From: Helcobacillus massiliensis
GTDB lineage: Bacteria > Actinomycetota > Actinomycetes > Actinomycetales > Dermabacteraceae
Direction of reading: 5' to 3'
Assembly (NCBI RefSeq): GCF_014191425.1
Contig: NZ_JACHWP010000002.1
Span: 124,001 to 188,000 of the forward strand
DNA: 64,000 nucleotides
In this document: in pieces, positions 33,566 through 42,033 of the stretch
How positions within the stretch are numbered: the first letter of the stretch is position 1
How the letters are laid out: every line of letters begins with the position of its first letter
The notes under the pieces: generated by a model
The model's database searches: none
Told to the model about the DNA's origin: nothing
Seen by the model: the letters and a program-made list of their open reading frames with translations, nothing else
Position numbers and translations under genes: made by a program

Positions 33566-35314
33566 TCAGCCCCGCTGGGCTGTGGATGACTGCACGACCA
33601 GCACCCGTCGGCCCCGCGTCTGCTCCCCCAGCGCCTCCGGAAGATCCTCCGCTGTGACAGTGCGGGCATCGACGCCGAGGGCGCGGGCCGCAGCGGCGAG
33701 GTCCGTGCCGTGCGGGGTGGTGAAGAACCGGTCGAAGAGGCCGCGGTCGGCACCGGCGTGCTCGAGGCCGCCGAAGATGCGGCCGCCGCCGTCGTCCACG
33801 ATGACGATGTCCAGCTCCGGCTGCTCCTCGGTGGGGCCGATGACGAGCCCGGTCAGGTCGTGGATCGCGGACACGTCCCCCAGCAGCACGCGGGTGCGTC
33901 CCCGCTCGCCGCGGTGGGCGCGGGCGAGGGCGATGCCGCTGGCCATCGACATCGTGCCGTCGATGCCGGCGAGACCGCGATTGGCGATGATGCGGGCGCG
34001 GGTGGGGCCGCCGTGCCGTTCGAGGTCGCGGATGAGCGCGCTCGCACCGAGGATGAGGACGTCGCCGTTGCGGGCCTCGTTCCAGACCGCGAGCGCGGCG
34101 CGGGTCTGCCAGGTGGTCGCGTCGCTGGTGGGGACAGCGGCCCAGGCCCGGGCGTACTCGCCGCCGGTGGTGCTTCCGGCGGCGTCCGCGTCGCCGGTGA
34201 GGCGGGAGGCCGACGGGTCCACCCGCGCGAGAACGCGGGCGGCGCGATGGGTGGGGTCCACCCAGTCGATGGTGGGTGAGACGACCGTGATGTCCACGTC
34301 GTCAGCTCCCAGGAGGCTGCGCAGGACCGGGCGGGACAGCGTCGGGTGGCCGAAGACGACCGCTGCGTCGGGCCGCAGCGGGTGCGCATCCTCGGCGAAC
34401 ACGGTCGCCAGCTGCTCCGGGGTGATGAGGGTCGGGCCCGGGCGGCGCGCGCTGCTGGACGGCTCGGCGGCGATCGGCAGGTCGAGGTGCTCGGCGAGGG
34501 CGGCAGCGTCGGCGCCGGTGGCCTCATCGGCGTCACCGGCCACGACGACGGTGCGCATCGGCAGGCTCAGCGGGACGCCGGGTGCCCGCTGCGCGTCGCG
34601 GCGGGCGCCGAGTCTGATCGCACGCGAGGGCGCCGACGCATCCTCGCCGCCCGGCCCGGGCGCTGCAGACTCGGGCGCGGTCTGCGGGGTGAGGGGGTCG
34701 CGGAAGGACAGGTTGAGGTGCACGGGCGCTCCGAGGTCGGTCCCGGGCGCTCCTCCCTCGAGCGCGGTCGCGGCAGCGCGCGCCGCGGTGGACGCCCAGG
34801 TGCGCAGCTCCATCCCGCTCGCCCGGTCCGCGGCCGGTGCGGGAAGGTCCGCACTGAGCGCCGTGAACGGCTCGAACATCCCCACCTGGTGGGTGGTCTG
34901 GTTCGCGCCCGTTCCGCGCAGCTCTGCCGGCCGGTCAGCGGTCAGCGCAACCAGGGGGACATGCGAATGGTGCGCCTCCATCATCGCGGCCAGCAGGTGC
35001 GCCGTCGCGGTGCCGGACGTGGTGGCAACGGCGGCGAAGGACCCGTCGGCCCGCCCGGCGCGGGAGATGCCGAGCGCGGTGAACGCGGCCGACCGCTCAT
35101 CGAGGCGCACGTGGCACCGCAGGCCGAGCGCGTGCGCGGCGTACACGATCGGGGCGGACCGCGACCCGGGCGCCACCACGAGGTCGCTCATGCCGGCGGC
35201 CCGCAGCGCTTCCAGCAGGGCACGCGCGCACTCGACGGCACCGGACCCGCTCGCGGGGATCACCGCGGTGCCGGGCTCGGGGCGTGCGGGCGGCACGGGC
35301 TGGGCGTCGGTCAC
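33566..35314 (-). CDS. menD: SEPHCHC synthase MenD
   Basis: 582 residues. Thiamine-diphosphate enzyme: VVAPGSRSAPIVYAA, RLDERSAAFTALG (catalytic Glu), TSGTATAHLLAAMMEA, and the cofactor-binding IVIVDDGGGRIFGGLEH. It joins isochorismate with 2-oxoglutarate. It starts at GTG eight bases after the menC stop. Ala-rich insertions around residues 200-240 lengthen it slightly relative to relatives. Confidence 0.93.
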   Translation of the reverse strand: MTDAQPVPPARPEPGTAVIPASGSGAVECARALLEALRAAGMSDLVVAPGSRSAPIVYAAHALGLRCHVRLDERSAAFTALGISRAGRADGSFAAVATTSGTATAHLLAAMMEAHHSHVPLVALTADRPAELRGTGANQTTHQVGMFEPFTALSADLPAPAADRASGMELRTWASTAARAAATALEGGAPGTDLGAPVHLNLSFRDPLTPQTAPESAAPGPGGEDASAPSRAIRLGARRDAQRAPGVPLSLPMRTVVVAGDADEATGADAAALAEHLDLPIAAEPSSSARRPGPTLITPEQLATVFAEDAHPLRPDAAVVFGHPTLSRPVLRSLLGADDVDITVVSPTIDWVDPTHRAARVLARVDPSASRLTGDADAAGSTTGGEYARAWAAVPTSDATTWQTRAALAVWNEARNGDVLILGASALIRDLERHGGPTRARIIANRGLAGIDGTMSMASGIALARAHRGERGRTRVLLGDVSAIHDLTGLVIGPTEEQPELDIVIVDDGGGRIFGGLEHAGADRGLFDRFFTTPHGTDLAAAARALGVDARTVTAEDLPEALGEQTRGRRVLVVQSSTAQRG

Positions 35315-35322
35315 GGCGGGGA

Positions 35323-36285
35323 TCAGGACGCGTAGTGGCTCAGGCGCTCCATCCAGCGCTCACGCACATCCTCCGGCGCTTTCACGACCTCCAGGCCCAG
35401 CTCGTCGATGTCCTGGCGGAACGAGGTGAGGCGGCCGTTGCCGGAGATGAGCGGGTCGGCGACCACGTCGGTGGCGAGCAGGCGCGCCGTCCCCAGGCCG
35501 CACGCGTACGGAGGCTCCGGCAGGGACGTGGCCAGCGCCAGCCCCATCGCGATGCCGATCGACGACTCCAGCGCACTGGAGACGACGACGGGGACATCGG
35601 CGTCCTCAGCGATCTGCAGGCAGCGGGTGATGCCGCCCATCGGCTGCACCTTGAGGATCATGATGTCGGCGGCGTCCTTGCGGATCACTTCGAGGGGGTC
35701 ATCGGCGAGCCGCACCGACTCGTCCGCCGCGATCGGCACATCAACGCGGGAACGGATCCAGGCCATGTCGGCGATCGTGCGGCCCGGCTGCTCGACGTAT
35801 TCGAGGCCGCCGGCGGCGCGGTCGAGCTGCCCGATGCGCTTCACCGCTTCGGACTTCGCCCATCCGGCGTTGGCGTCGATCCGGATCTTCGCCTCCGGGC
35901 CGAGGGCATCGCGCACTGCCTCCAGGCGCGCCTGGTCCTCCTTGTGGGTGGAACCGGACTCCGCCACCTTCACCTTCGCCGTCGCCGAGCCGAAGGAGCG
36001 GGCGATGCGGTGCGCCTCGTCGGGCCCCACGGCGGGCACGGTCGCGTTGATCTCGACATCGGACCGCTCCATGCGGGGGAACTCCCGGGTGGCGGATTCC
36101 ATCGCCGCCTCGAACCAGGGGCGCGACTGCTCAGCGTCGTAGTCCCAGAACGGGGAGAACTCCGACCAGCCCGCCTCCCCGTGCAGGAGGACGCCTTCGC
36201 GCACATCCAGCCCGCGGAATCGGGTGGTGAGGGGGATGCGGTAGACCTCGATCCGGTCGATGCCGTCGAACATAGTTGTGGCCAT
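35323..36285 (-). CDS. menC: o-Succinylbenzoate synthase MenC
   Basis: 320 residues of the enolase superfamily. Catalytic Lys in AKVKVAES, metal ligands in RIDANAGW, YVEQPG and IAADESV, and the second Lys in ILKVQPMGG. It dehydrates SHCHC to o-succinylbenzoate. The ATG at 36285 is preceded at six bases by TACTCT (leaderless type) and by GGAGG, which would be too close for a normal ribosome site. It diverges from the alkyltransferase-like gene across only 22 bases. Confidence 0.92.
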   Translation of the reverse strand: MATTMFDGIDRIEVYRIPLTTRFRGLDVREGVLLHGEAGWSEFSPFWDYDAEQSRPWFEAAMESATREFPRMERSDVEINATVPAVGPDEAHRIARSFGSATAKVKVAESGSTHKEDQARLEAVRDALGPEAKIRIDANAGWAKSEAVKRIGQLDRAAGGLEYVEQPGRTIADMAWIRSRVDVPIAADESVRLADDPLEVIRKDAADIMILKVQPMGGITRCLQIAEDADVPVVVSSALESSIGIAMGLALATSLPEPPYACGLGTARLLATDVVADPLISGNGRLTSFRQDIDELGLEVVKAPEDVRERWMERLSHYAS

Positions 36286-36291
36286 GCCTCC

Positions 36292-36301
36292 AGAGTAGTC
36301 T
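36292..36301. promoter_or_regulatory. Overlapping divergent -10 boxes (menC and alkyltransferase-like gene)
   Basis: Minus-strand TACTCT (36297-36292) and plus-strand TAGTCT (36296-36301) share two bases. Each lies exactly six bases from its start codon (ATG 36285, GTG 36308). The -35 regions must lie inside the opposite genes. Both transcripts would be leaderless and polymerases would compete for the same DNA. Confidence 0.6.
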
Positions 36302-36307
36302 GTCTGA

Positions 36308-36676
36308 GTGGATCCTGAGACCAGAGCAGAGATGATTCTGAGACTAACGGAAACGCTCGCTGAGCGCGAAGCGGTCACCTACGGCGACCTGGGGGAAGTC
36401 ACCGGTCTCGGCCCCCGTGAGGTGGGGCGGATCATGGCGCAGTACGGCAGCGCCGTCCCCTGGTGGCGCGTCACCAACGCCCGCGGCGAGCTCCCACCCC
36501 ACCTCCTGGAGCGCGCCCGGCAGCTGTGGGCGGCAGAGGGCATGCCCCTCACGGCCGACGGATGCCGCCTCCGCCTCGGCGCCGTGCGCGTCCCGCTCCC
36601 GGACCTGGCGGCGCGGTTCGCCCCCGTCGGCCGCGACTTCGCCGAGCAGGACCCACCTTCTACAGTGGAGCCATGA
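36308..36676 (+). CDS. Alkyltransferase-like DNA repair protein (ATL)
   Basis: 122 residues with the DNA-binding half of O6-methylguanine methyltransferase (VTYGDLGEVTGLGPREVGRIM). The active-site PCHRV motif reads PWWRV, so the methyl-accepting Cys is Trp, the defining feature of ATL proteins. These flip damaged guanines and hand them to nucleotide excision repair. GTG start with TAGTCT six bases upstream. Its stop overlaps the menB ATG (ATGA), so a DNA-repair gene is translationally coupled to menaquinone synthesis. Confidence 0.88.
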   Translation: MDPETRAEMILRLTETLAEREAVTYGDLGEVTGLGPREVGRIMAQYGSAVPWWRVTNARGELPPHLLERARQLWAAEGMPLTADGCRLRLGAVRVPLPDLAARFAPVGRDFAEQDPPSTVEP

Positions 36677-37653
36677 CCACTGATGGAGCCACCCCCACCG
36701 CACTCCCCCGCCGCGTCTCCGACACGTTCGATCCCGAGCGCTGGCGCGACATCCCCGAGGCCGAACTCGGCGGCCCCGCGTTCACCGACATCACGTACCA
36801 CCGCGCCGTCGCCCGCGACAGCGGCGCCATCCGCGACCTGAACGCCGTGCGCATCGCGTTCGACCGCCCTGAGGTCCGCAACGCGTTCCGCCCCCACACC
36901 GTGGATGAGCTGTTCCGCGCCTTCGACCACGCCCGCCTCGACCCGACGGTCGGCGTCATCATCCTCACCGGCAACGGCCCCGCCCCGAAGGACGGCGTGT
37001 GGGCGTTCTGCTCCGGCGGCGACCAGCGGATCCGCGGCCGCTCCGGCTACCAGTACGCCGACGGGGACACCGCCGACACGGTCCGCGCCGGCGGCGCCGG
37101 CCGCCTCCACATCCTCGAAGTGCAGCGCCTGATCCGCACCATGGGCAAGGTCGTCATCGCCGCGGTCAACGGCTGGGCCGCCGGCGGCGGGCACTCCCTG
37201 CACGTGGTGGCCGACATGTCCATCGCCTCCCGCCAGCACGCCCGGTTCAAGCAGACCGATGCGAACGTCGGCAGCTTCGACGGCGGCTACGGCTCCGCGT
37301 ACCTCGCCAAGCAGGTCGGGCAGAAGCGCGCCCGGGAGATCTTCTTCCTCGCCGAGGAGTACTCCGCTGACGACGCCTACGACTGGGGCGCCGTGAACCG
37401 CGTGATCGACCACGAGGACCTCGAGGACGAGGCGCTGCGGATGGCCGCGGTCATCGCCACGAAGTCGCCGCAGGCGATCCGGATGCTGAAGTTCGCGTTC
37501 AACCTCACCGACGACGGCCTCATGGGCCAGCAGGTGTTCGCCGGCGAGGCGACTCGTCTCGCATACACCACCGACGAAGCGGTCGAGGGCCGCGACGCCT
37601 TCCTGGAGAAGCGTGACCCTGACTGGTCGTCGTTCCACCACCCGCAGGGCTGA
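36673..37653 (+). CDS. menB: 1,4-Dihydroxy-2-naphthoyl-CoA synthase
   Basis: 326 residues of the crotonase fold. MenB features: FDRPEVRNAFRPHTVDEL, CSGGDQRIRGRSGYQYA, VNGWAAGGGHSLHVVADM (oxyanion hole) and FKQTDANVGSFDGGYGSA. It cyclises o-succinylbenzoyl-CoA. ATG at 36673 overlaps the preceding stop; TACAGT six bases upstream could also give a leaderless transcript of menB alone. menE follows after 56 bases. Confidence 0.95.
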   Translation: MTTDGATPTALPRRVSDTFDPERWRDIPEAELGGPAFTDITYHRAVARDSGAIRDLNAVRIAFDRPEVRNAFRPHTVDELFRAFDHARLDPTVGVIILTGNGPAPKDGVWAFCSGGDQRIRGRSGYQYADGDTADTVRAGGAGRLHILEVQRLIRTMGKVVIAAVNGWAAGGGHSLHVVADMSIASRQHARFKQTDANVGSFDGGYGSAYLAKQVGQKRAREIFFLAEEYSADDAYDWGAVNRVIDHEDLEDEALRMAAVIATKSPQAIRMLKFAFNLTDDGLMGQQVFAGEATRLAYTTDEAVEGRDAFLEKRDPDWSSFHHPQG

Positions 37654-37709
37654 CCTCCCCCCACCCGCAGGGCTGACCCGTCGGCCCTGATCCCCGCTGA
37701 AAGGACTGC

Positions 37710-38948
37710 ATGCGCCTGCTCGCCCCCGGCCCGTTCACCGGCACCCGCGACTCCTTCTCCCGCTACGTGGACGCCCTCACCGGCATGTCCGACGGCGCCA
37801 CCCTCGTGTGGCTCGCCCCGTTCGCGCCACCGCCGTCGATCGGAGCCCAGTACGCCCTCGTGCTGCCGACCTCCGGCTCCACCGGCGCCCCGAAGGCCGT
37901 CGCCCACACCCTGTCAACGCTGCGGGCCTCGCAGACCGCGACCGCTGAGGCGCTCGGCGGGCACGGGGCGTGGCTGCCGTTCCTGCCGCCCACGCACATC
38001 GCGGGCGTGCAGGTGGTCGCGCGGGCGCTGCGCACCGCGGAGGAGCGGGGCCTCACCGACCCGCACGGCGCACTGGGACCGCTGCCGGACCTGGGAGCGT
38101 CGTTCACCGCGCGCACGGTGCTGGAGGCGATGGAGCAGTGGGTCGCACCCGACGGCCCCCTGTTCACGTCCTTCGTGCCGACCCAGCTGGAGCGTCTGCT
38201 GCGCGACCCGGACCGGGCTGTTCTCGAGCAGCTGCGGCGGTTCTCGGCGATCCTCGTGGGCGGCGCCGCCACCCCGGCGGCCCTGCTGCGACAGGGGCGG
38301 GACCTCGGACTTCGCCTCGTCACGACGTACGGGTCGTCGGAGACCGCCGGCGGTTGCGTGTACAGCGCCCGCCCCCTGCCGGGTGTGGATCTGTCCCTCG
38401 ATGATGAGGGCCGCCTCGTCATCACCGCGCCGTGCGTGGCCCGCGGCTATCTCTCCGACGAGGGTGAGCTCAGCGCCTTCGAATCGGTGCCCTCCACTGC
38501 GGGCGGCGCCGCCGGGGTGCGCCGCTTCGTCACCAGCGATCTCGCGGATCTGGGGGCCGACGGGACCCTCTCCATCCGCGGCCGCGCCGACCACGTCATC
38601 ATCACCGGTGGCGCCAAGGTCAACCCGGTGGAGGTGGAGCAGGCGATCTGTCAGCACCCGTCGGCCGCGGCGGCGCTCGTGACGAGCGTGCCGGACGACG
38701 AGTGGGGGCAGAAGGTCGTCGCGCTGGTGGTCCCCGCCGAACCGGCACACCCTGGCGGCGCAGATGTGGAACGGCCTGGCCCGGAGCTCCTGCGGGAAAC
38801 GGTGCCGGACGCGGTGCGCGCCGCAAGGCTGGGCTCTGCGAGCGTCCCCAAGATCACCCTTGTCGTGGACGACCTCCCGATGCTGGCCCCCGGTAAGGTG
38901 GATCGGGTTCGCGCCGCGGATCTCGCCCGGCGCCTCATCCGCGAGTAA
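37710..38948 (+). CDS. menE: o-Succinylbenzoate-CoA ligase
   Basis: 412 residues, adenylate-forming enzyme: P-loop PTSGSTGAPKAVAHT, TYGSSETAGGCVY, SDLADLGADGTLSIRGRADHVIITGGAKVNPVEVE split over the hinge and C-terminal lid. Activates o-succinylbenzoate with CoA for MenB. Short N-terminus is typical of actinobacterial MenE. RBS AAAGGA; menA follows nine bases later. Confidence 0.9.
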   Translation: MRLLAPGPFTGTRDSFSRYVDALTGMSDGATLVWLAPFAPPPSIGAQYALVLPTSGSTGAPKAVAHTLSTLRASQTATAEALGGHGAWLPFLPPTHIAGVQVVARALRTAEERGLTDPHGALGPLPDLGASFTARTVLEAMEQWVAPDGPLFTSFVPTQLERLLRDPDRAVLEQLRRFSAILVGGAATPAALLRQGRDLGLRLVTTYGSSETAGGCVYSARPLPGVDLSLDDEGRLVITAPCVARGYLSDEGELSAFESVPSTAGGAAGVRRFVTSDLADLGADGTLSIRGRADHVIITGGAKVNPVEVEQAICQHPSAAAALVTSVPDDEWGQKVVALVVPAEPAHPGGADVERPGPELLRETVPDAVRAARLGSASVPKITLVVDDLPMLAPGKVDRVRAADLARRLIRE

Positions 38949-38957
38949 GGAGCGCCT

Positions 38958-39863
38958 GTGGCATCGGTGAGCCAGTGGATCGAAGGGGCTCGCCCCCGCA
39001 CTCTTCCCGCGGCGTTCGCGCCGGTGGCAGCGGGTGTGGGCCTGTCGATCCACCATGCGGGCTTCCTCGGCGCCACCACTGCTGTGCGCGGCCTCCTCGC
39101 CCTCGGTCTCGCGCTCGCCCTCCAGGTGGGGGTGAACTACGCGAACGACTACTCGGACGGCATCCGCGGCACTGACGAGGACCGCGTGGGGCCGTTCCGC
39201 CTCACCGGGTCCGGAGCGGCGCCGGCATCAACGGTGAAGCGAGCCGCGTTCCTCAGCTTCGGCATCGGCGGCCTGTTCGGACTCGTGCTCGTCGCACTGG
39301 CCGGCGCGTGGTGGATGCTGCTGGTCGGCGTGGCCTGCGTTCTGGCGGCATGGTTCTACACCGGCGGGAAGAGGCCGTACGGCTACCTCGGCTTCGGTGA
39401 AGTCATGGTGTTCATCTTCTTCGGCCTGGTCGCCGTGATGGGCACCAGCTATCTGATCACCGGCCGCACCAGCTGGGAGGATGTGCTGGTCGCTGCAGCG
39501 ATCGGCCTGCTCGCCTGCGCCGTCATGCTGACGAACAACCTGCGCGACATTCCCACCGATGAGGTCGCCGGCAAGCGCACGCTCGCTGTACGACTCGGCG
39601 ATGCCCGCACTCGGCGACTGTTCGCGGCGACACTCCTCGTGCCGTTCCTCCTGGTCATCCCGTACACGATCGTGAACATCGGTGTGGTGATCACCCTGAT
39701 CGCGGTGGTTCTGACCGTGCACCCGCTTCGCCTGGTTGTCGCTGAGCACGCCACTGGGCGCAGTCTGATCCCCGTTCTCGGTGCGGCGGGCAAGTTGGAG
39801 GCGGCGGTCGGCCTGCTGCTGCTGATCGGGCCGATCCTCACGCTCGTACTCAGCCTGCGCTGA
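38958..39863 (+). CDS. menA: 1,4-Dihydroxy-2-naphthoate polyprenyltransferase
   Basis: 301 residues, UbiA-type membrane prenyltransferase with about nine helices. First Asp-rich motif NYANDYSDGIRGTDEDR, second NNLRDIPTDEVAGKRTLAVRLG. It attaches the isoprenoid tail to make demethylmenaquinone. GTG start with AAGGAG five bases upstream. Last gene of the ATL-menB-menE-menA run. Confidence 0.94.
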   Translation: MASVSQWIEGARPRTLPAAFAPVAAGVGLSIHHAGFLGATTAVRGLLALGLALALQVGVNYANDYSDGIRGTDEDRVGPFRLTGSGAAPASTVKRAAFLSFGIGGLFGLVLVALAGAWWMLLVGVACVLAAWFYTGGKRPYGYLGFGEVMVFIFFGLVAVMGTSYLITGRTSWEDVLVAAAIGLLACAVMLTNNLRDIPTDEVAGKRTLAVRLGDARTRRLFAATLLVPFLLVIPYTIVNIGVVITLIAVVLTVHPLRLVVAEHATGRSLIPVLGAAGKLEAAVGLLLLIGPILTLVLSLR

Positions 39864-39904
39864 TCAGCGCTCGCATTCAGCCTGAGGCGAGCAGGCCAGG
39901 ATCC

Positions 39905-40219
39905 TCAGCGGTCTCCGGCCGACTCCCGGGCGTCCATGACGGCGTCCTCGGCTTCGGCGTCTTCGTCGGCAACAGAACGGCGGCCCGCAGCCCTCTTCTT
40001 CTCCGCCTTCGCTCGGCGCTCAGCGCCCCGGCGCTGCATCTCTTCGGTCACCTGCTGGCGCTGCTTACCCAGCAGGAGGATCGACACCAGCATGGCGATG
40101 ACCGCGGCCAGGATCCCGGTCCAGATCCACGGAACCGACGGCATCAGAACCGCGAGCAGGAACCAGGCAACGGCGAAGACCGCTAGCCGGAGCAGAGAGA
40201 ACAGAAGAATCGAACGCAT
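39905..40219 (-). CDS. DUF4229 small membrane protein
   Basis: 104 residues: two membrane helices (LLFSLLRLAVFAVAWFLLAV; WIWTGILAAVIAMLVSILLL) and a long charged, coiled-coil-like C-terminal tail. The family is common beside menA in actinobacteria; function unknown. The chosen ATG (MRSILLFSLL) has TAGCCT seven bases upstream and GGAGGG overlapping, so it could be leaderless or led. Confidence 0.8.
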   Translation of the reverse strand: MRSILLFSLLRLAVFAVAWFLLAVLMPSVPWIWTGILAAVIAMLVSILLLGKQRQQVTEEMQRRGAERRAKAEKKRAAGRRSVADEDAEAEDAVMDARESAGDR

Positions 40220-40518: not shown

Positions 40519-42033
40519 ATGACACCCCGCAGCACGGACAGCGCCGACGACCGTCCGAACCGGCGCGAGCCGCGAGCTCCCCGTCCGGTGCAGCGCCGAG
40601 ACGACACCGTCGGCGTCACCGAATTCGCCGCCCTGCCCGACACCGACCGTGCAGCCCGCGACCGAGCCCACGCCCTGTCAGCCCTCACTCGTGCTGCCGC
40701 CGAGCACGCCGCACGCGAGTACAGGCTGCTGGCCCCGCTGCATCTCGACGACACCAGCACAGAAGCGAATCTCCTCGTCGCCGCGCAGAACGAACTCATC
40801 GCATCCGTCGGCCTGCACACCACCAACGACCGCGCCACCCGGCGGATCCAGGACGCCCACCGCGCCGTCACCGCGCTGCCGACGACCCTCTCCCGGCTCG
40901 AACGCGGGGAGATCACCGCCGACCAGTTCTCCCTCCTGCTGCACCGGACCCGCCATCGGTCACCGGAGATCCTCCGCCGCGGCGATGATCTCCTGGCCGA
41001 GTGGGACTTCACGGCCGACCCCGCCGATCTCGACCACGGCATGCGCCGACTCGCCGTCTACCTGCGGGAACTCGAACGCGCCGTGGACGAAGCCCCGCCG
41101 CCCATGCGGGACGCCCGCCTTCTGCCGCCCGATCCTGAGCACCCGGGTGCTCTCTCGATGATCATCACCGGCCCGGCGCCCACCATGATCGACATGGCGG
41201 ACAGGCTGGACCGAACCGCCCGCGCCGCACAGCTGCAGCAGAAGCACGCATTGGAGCGGGGTGAGGACGTCCCGTTCGACCCCGACGGGATCGCCGCGCT
41301 CAAACAGAGGCCGCTGTCCGTCAGCGCGCTGCGCAGCATCCTCATCACCAGCGCCGAATTCACGAATGACGGTCTCCGCATCCCCGAACCCCGCTTCCAG
41401 ATGTTCGTCCAGGTTCCGGCGCTCACCCTCCTCGGGAAGAGCGACCTGCCCGGCACCATCAACGGGGACCACGTCATTCCGGCGGACATGGCGCGTGACC
41501 TCGCCGGTCGCAGCAGCACCTGGCTGCGGATCCTGCAGGACGAAGCCACCGGGGCGATCCTGCCGGTCCCCGCGACCCGGTACCGCCCCACGCCGCAGAT
41601 GCTGCAGCACCTGCGTCTGCGCAACCGCATGTGCGCAGCGCCCGGGTGCACACGCCGAACCAACGGGGCCCGCATCGAAGCCGACCACATCGTCGAGTTC
41701 AACCACCGCGATCCCCACAGCGGCGGTCGAACCGAGATGGAGAACCTCCACCTGCTCTGCACGCGCCACCATCAGGTGAAGACAGCGAAAGCGGTGGACC
41801 CGGTTCGGATCCACGGCCCGAAGCCGGGCCGATCAACCGGTCGGACCCGGTGGACGATCGCCGACAGGCTCGTCGCCGACAGGACCGACGCCGATGACCT
41901 CATCGCAGCATCCGAGTACGCCTTCGTTCGCTCCGCCTGGGCGCATCACGCCCGCCGACACGGGCTCGACGGGTCCGGTGGAGAGGACCCGCCGCCCACA
42001 TCCGGAGCAGATCCAGGTCCCCCGCCGTTCTGA
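40519..42033 (+). CDS. DUF222 / HNH endonuclease-domain protein (REP13E12-like)
   Basis: 504 residues. N-terminal helical DUF222 region (about 45-330), then an HNH domain with CAAPGCTRRTNGARIEADHI and NLHLLCTRHHQVKT (metal and catalytic His/Cys). The family is multi-copy in actinobacteria, for example the M. tuberculosis 13E12 repeats; its role is unsettled, with suggestions ranging from mobile element to recombination site. No terminal repeats are visible here. RBS AGGAGAG; a regulated promoter and structured leader precede it. Confidence 0.88.
   Translation: MTPRSTDSADDRPNRREPRAPRPVQRRDDTVGVTEFAALPDTDRAARDRAHALSALTRAAAEHAAREYRLLAPLHLDDTSTEANLLVAAQNELIASVGLHTTNDRATRRIQDAHRAVTALPTTLSRLERGEITADQFSLLLHRTRHRSPEILRRGDDLLAEWDFTADPADLDHGMRRLAVYLRELERAVDEAPPPMRDARLLPPDPEHPGALSMIITGPAPTMIDMADRLDRTARAAQLQQKHALERGEDVPFDPDGIAALKQRPLSVSALRSILITSAEFTNDGLRIPEPRFQMFVQVPALTLLGKSDLPGTINGDHVIPADMARDLAGRSSTWLRILQDEATGAILPVPATRYRPTPQMLQHLRLRNRMCAAPGCTRRTNGARIEADHIVEFNHRDPHSGGRTEMENLHLLCTRHHQVKTAKAVDPVRIHGPKPGRSTGRTRWTIADRLVADRTDADDLIAASEYAFVRSAWAHHARRHGLDGSGGEDPPPTSGADPGPPPF

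Follow-up and report, generated by a model that had tools for sequence, protein, structure and literature searches.

A 22-nucleotide divergent gap between menC and an alkyltransferase-like gene is best read as a compact leaderless bidirectional promoter

The 64,000-nucleotide stretch of the Helcobacillus massiliensis genome analysed here (the window) contains a menC gene and a gene for an alkyltransferase-like (ATL) protein that diverge from each other across 22 nucleotides, and this raises the question of how two genes can be started from so small a gap. Between the menC ATG (36285-36283, minus strand) and the ATL GTG (36308-36310, plus strand), TACTCT and TAGTCT are read on opposite strands and overlap in the bases TA (36296-36297), so that the -10 region is shared as in bidirectional promoters (Table 1). 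A first-pass annotation of this DNA had described the two boxes, their two-base overlap and the six bases that separate each from its start codon, and its coordinates proved exact. It had also interpreted them as two leaderless-type promoters facing apart in a minimal element, an interpretation supported by the geometry of the gap and by the spacing peak of the genome.

Table 1. Coordinates of the genes and of the predicted promoter elements around the menC/ATL gap (positions in the window).
Feature	Position	Strand	Evidence or remark
menD, following menC	33566..35314	-	TIGR00173, 303.6 bits (cut-off 244.2)
menC, o-succinylbenzoate synthase, 320 aa, predicted leaderless	35323..36285	-	NF002782, 396.5 bits (cut-off 288)
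Whole candidate bidirectional promoter	36286..36307		22-nt divergent gap
menC -10 box, TACTCT	36292..36297	-	6 bases (GGAGGC) to ATG
ATL -10 box, TAGTCT	36296..36301	+	6 bases (GTCTGA) to GTG; modal spacing in the genome
ATL gene (alkyltransferase-like), 122 aa, GTG start	36308..36676	+	PF01035, above cut-off
Further TANNNT (TAGTCT) inside ATL, possible start of a leadered menC RNA	36341..36346	-	Sequence; rival explanation
menB -10 box, TACAGT, inside the ATL gene	36661..36666	+	N6 (GGAGCC), then ATG at 36673
menB, putative leaderless gene served by its own box	36673..37653	+	NF006186, 529.8 bits (cut-off 378); ATG overlaps the ATL stop (ATGA)
menE-like ligase	37710..38948	+	NF005877, 238.6 bits (below cut-off 345)
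menA	38958..39863	+	NF004751, 358 bits (cut-off 264)

The menC, menD, menB and menA products passed their NCBIfam cut-offs, and the match of menE stayed below its own. The ATL protein matched only the DNA-binding domain PF01035 and gave no NCBIfam match. The active motif of alkyltransferases is PCHRV. At the position of this cysteine motif the ATL protein carries PWWRV, which aligns with the PWFRV of 2kif_A, the acceptor cysteine being replaced. A homologue with 50% identity likewise adjoins menB in genome G008. Note that in G008 an HNH-nuclease-like gene (assigned by eye) lies between menC and ATL-menB (L082, G008:C6:421000-430000), and that a gene of similar type is present in the window past menA, at 40519-42033.

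Is the geometry of the gap accidental? Probably not: when the gap's own letters were shuffled 200,000 times, both boxes fell at spacing 6 in just 0.2% of the shuffles. To this we added a spacing control over a 464-kb sample of the genome (the window plus 20 further stretches), which contains 367 predicted genes with 734 candidate ATG or GTG starts. Spacing 6 accounted for 40 occurrences of TANNNT before these starts and spacing 7 for 14, and the other 29 spacings between 0 and 30 held 37 in total, or 1.3 each. Leaderless starts are therefore common in this genome, with six bases as the usual spacing. The rougher control motif TNNNAT was found at spacings 5-8 in 23 of the 367 genes, compared to 53 for TANNNT; it was considered to resemble the -10 motif too closely, and the weight was placed on the spacing control. 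Taken together, the low shuffle rate and the genomic spacing peak suggest that menC and ATL are both probably leaderless. Among 50 divergent pairs in the sample, boxes at spacing 6 or 7 precede both genes in five, one gene in 15 and neither gene in 30; the window's pair entered this count as menC/menB, ATL having been left uncalled by the codon-based gene finder.

Leaderless genes have been reported as common in Actinobacteria (PMC3160421, PMC3898074; here and below, as given in the accessible parts of the cited papers). In those genes TANNNT lies about 12 bp from the start codon, a spacing matched in this genome, and those of Mycobacterium tuberculosis lack a conserved -35. At the gap, the best -35 matches in the two directions are 2/6 and 3/6, typical of random sequence. 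What differs at menC/ATL is the interleaving of two putative leaderless starts. The divergent genes prpD/Rv1129c have been reported as a leaderless pair (PMC3898074), whose accessible description does not mention overlapping -10 boxes. The accessible part of the same study describes respiration genes as nearly absent from the leaderless set of M. tuberculosis, and we counted this against our preferred explanation. A sigma-70 scan returned no match, and the helpful T at -18 was absent upstream of both predicted starts. The near-random -35 matches and the missing T at -18 would make both promoters weak, so that little competition between them is to be expected. Rfam yielded zero matches across 35000-40000, and the single terminator-like stem (36370-36356, minus strand), against a shuffle mean of 0.4, is near the level of chance. 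On the translational side, no Shine-Dalgarno sequence precedes the ATL GTG, and a GGAGG lies upstream of menC, 1 base from the ATG.

This GGAGG belongs to an explanation in which only one side of the gap is leaderless: menC would be translated, through GGAGG as the ribosome site, from a leadered RNA begun for example at the TAGTCT at 36346-36341, perhaps from a second ATG at 36273. The GGAGG does stand just 5' of the ATG, and the upstream TANNNT leaves 55 bases to it. However, the first ATG follows GGAGG after 1 base and the second after 13, and either distance is poor spacing for a ribosome site. Comparison with relatives weighs on the same side. We collected 128 menC loci from the family and order (from 49 of 57 matched genomes and 79 of 101 further ones), of which 127 passed the start filter. 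With the window's locus included, 81 of the 127 carry TANNNT at spacing 6 or 7 (62 and 19, respectively) and 46 do not; in the histogram, which includes all candidate starts, every other spacing holds 0-5 matches. In relatives the letters between box and ATG vary, and the box with its spacing is kept where GGAGG is not. Moreover, menC homologues mostly start ten residues before a shared GID, and here the first ATG stands seven residues before it and the second only three. A leadered menC is thus unlikely, and menC shows what is expected of a leaderless gene, a conserved TANNNT 6-7 bases from its start.

The same is true of menB. This gene was in reach in 75 of the 128 loci, and a box at spacing 6 or 7 was found in 61 of the 75 (31 and 30, the window's locus included), with 0-9 matches at each other spacing, the 9 being at spacing 8. 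In all 75 loci menB faces away from menC. Since both genes are divergent throughout and each has a conserved box of its own, an arrangement of divergent menC and menB, both predicted to be leaderless, looks like the ancestral state. The distance between them is variable, from overlapping starts to 1,705 bases (2,256 in G008); to measure it, a start preceded by a box at 6 or 7 was given precedence over other possible starts. Gaps of up to 80 bases occur in 14 of the 75 loci, and gaps of up to 30 bases in four. Among the 14 gaps of up to 80 bases, overlapping boxes occur once, in the distant genome G037, with the same ANNNTANNNT overlap as in the window; the plus box of that genome addresses an ATG situated eight bases ahead of the menB start. 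Thus, of the conservation that the first-pass annotation had proposed to look for, relatives retain the distance that separates menC and menB from their respective boxes, and do not retain the interleaved gap. No congeneric genome was among the relatives compared, and a scan of genome contigs yielded two loci only, one in a Brachybacterium MAG (57% identity) and a Planctomycetota match (28%).

ATL stands beside menC in one of the 128 loci, that of the window's own genome, a count that covers ATL genes within about 1.5 kb of menC. For 28 other ATL loci, located in other contexts (L002-L030 without L023, whose match began too far in), TANNNT at spacings 5-8 was seen only in L029, where the start lies 29 codons upstream and is doubtful; a conserved box at 6-7 bases is hence not found for ATL as it is for menC and menB. 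This would fit an explanation in which the plus box is a by-product, TAGTCT arising by chance from the symmetry of the menC box and ATL really beginning at 36332 (ATG) or otherwise. TANNNT is partly symmetric, so that one box favours the other, and the missing gene call for ATL agrees with such an origin as well. Against it, an in-frame GTG follows TAGTCT at precisely the spacing most frequent for leaderless starts in this genome, many homologues have an in-frame ATG within one residue of this GTG, and the Pfam match and the G008 homologue back the ATL gene. We regard this explanation as quite improbable.

We consider it likely that the menC/ATL gap is a minimal leaderless bidirectional promoter with two low, constitutive outputs, and that menB is started mainly from its own box. 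The gap is best read as a compact case of a promoter type that is already known. In the bidirectional promoters described by Warman, Grainger and colleagues (PMC12825309, PMC10268837), -10 elements on opposite strands overlap, as they do here. The commonest distance between the two start sites of that class is 18, with 10 and 23 also common (PMC12825309), and the distance predicted from the box positions at menC/ATL, 23 bp, is one of these three. The difference is that the start codons are here the predicted start sites, so the gap would be free of 5' leaders and of further intergenic DNA. A partial precedent exists in Bradyrhizobium, where the divergent csoR and cueA genes also have overlapping -10 boxes and one gene is leaderless by RACE (PMC5057107); there, however, the cueA message carries a leader of 42 nt, and the promoters are covered by a repressor box, of a kind not known at menC/ATL. 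In the part of the open-access literature that was searched, we did not find an interleaved leaderless pair like the one at menC/ATL.

We infer the following course of events for this promoter. The control region would be reduced to its minimum, the two overlapping -10 boxes of ANNNTANNNT, and RNA polymerase with the housekeeping sigma factor would bind it in either orientation. Transcripts would begin with the first base of the start codon, the A of ATG for menC and the G of GTG for ATL, and would thus be leaderless in both directions. Binding in both orientations at once would be impossible, and because the promoter regions appear weak the polymerases would seldom meet. The output would then be two low, largely independent and constitutive levels of transcription, with no switch, and menB-menE-menA would be started mainly by the leaderless promoter of menB itself, in the last part of ATL, to which read-through from ATL would be an addition.

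The first-pass annotation had gone further at this point, proposing that menC-menD and ATL-menB-menE-menA are transcribed in a mutually exclusive manner, which would give balanced or flip-flop control of one pathway. Its premise agrees with what is stated for the class in the accessible text of PMC12825309: two polymerases cannot bind a bidirectional promoter simultaneously, and the two shared bases should likewise prevent it here. The consequence drawn from it found no support. In the window menB has its own TACAGT-N6-ATG (36661-36675), of the type conserved in relatives, and therefore menB-menE-menA could be transcribed independently of the shared gap. The genes that would surely be divided between the two gap boxes are menC(-menD) and ATL, and judged by sequence, the two halves of the pathway need not both depend on the shared element. 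As for a balance between the two sides, the basal activity of all five promoters tested in E. coli was below the level at which competition occurs, although competition can arise if one side is substantially activated (PMC12825309), and it has been suggested for csoR-cueA (PMC5057107). With the box before menB, these five basally weak promoters, the weak -35 matches of the gap and an interleaved arrangement that is not conserved all against it, exclusive or flip-flop control is very improbable.

Finally, we asked how often the interleaved pattern recurs. The exact pattern CAY-N6-ANNNTANNNT-N6-RTG has four sites in this genome, compared to none for the reversed pattern; two of them separate long divergent frames (menC/ATL and serS/diacylglycerol-kinase-like), and each of the remaining two is flanked by a short frame in one direction. 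Over 56 genomes the excess is weak, 61 sites versus 42 reversed (p = 0.076), seven of the 42 being in one genome. Frames that look coding flank the pattern on both sides at 22 of the 61 sites, compared to 81 of 735 CAY-N22-RTG controls (Fisher p = 1.2e-6), a value that is a guide only, since the controls were drawn from the sample of this one genome and the same site occurs twice among the 22, in two genomes of one genus. In this genome, an 18-bp version of the pattern (one site versus three reversed) and a variant with 7/6 spacing (none versus one reversed) gave no excess, so the pattern alone carries little weight. In one genome, a distance of 1.76 kb separates two near-identical copies of a ANNNTANNNT site (L250 and L251, G010:C1:1607280 and 1609039).

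Two further gaps of this genome lie between genes whose names were assigned by eye. The serS and diacylglycerol-kinase-like genes diverge across 22 nt, where TANNNT boxes interleave as at menC/ATL and stand six bases from each start (L063:1501-1528, G000:C3:2087-2114), and the TANNNT box at the serS start is kept, by eye, in 75-base stretches from 30 genomes. A coaE-like gene and a membrane-protein gene diverge across 17 nt, with TAGCCTA as the candidate box for both directions, as in the 18-bp class (L085:1501-1523, G000:C1:668228-668250).

It is possible, if on balance somewhat doubtful, that in compact actinobacterial genomes the gaps between divergent leaderless genes shrink until two interleaved -10 boxes are left, and that this is a recurring end state. 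The examples cited for such contraction are menC/ATL, serS with the diacylglycerol-kinase-like gene, the coaE-like gene with its membrane-protein neighbour, and the 22 of 61 sites in the 56 genomes. At menC, the gap perhaps contracted between two leaderless starts once ATL had come beside menB. If contraction of this kind occurs, two genes would have their promoters, start sites and start codons locked together within 17 or 22 bases, and a change in the promoter of one gene would tend to alter that of its partner. In the promoter proposed here, 22 bases would serve two promoters and two translation starts, which would illustrate to what size the control region of two genes can shrink if neither message is leadered, and such gaps may be natural minimal objects in which to test polymerase competition at bidirectional promoters outside E. 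coli.
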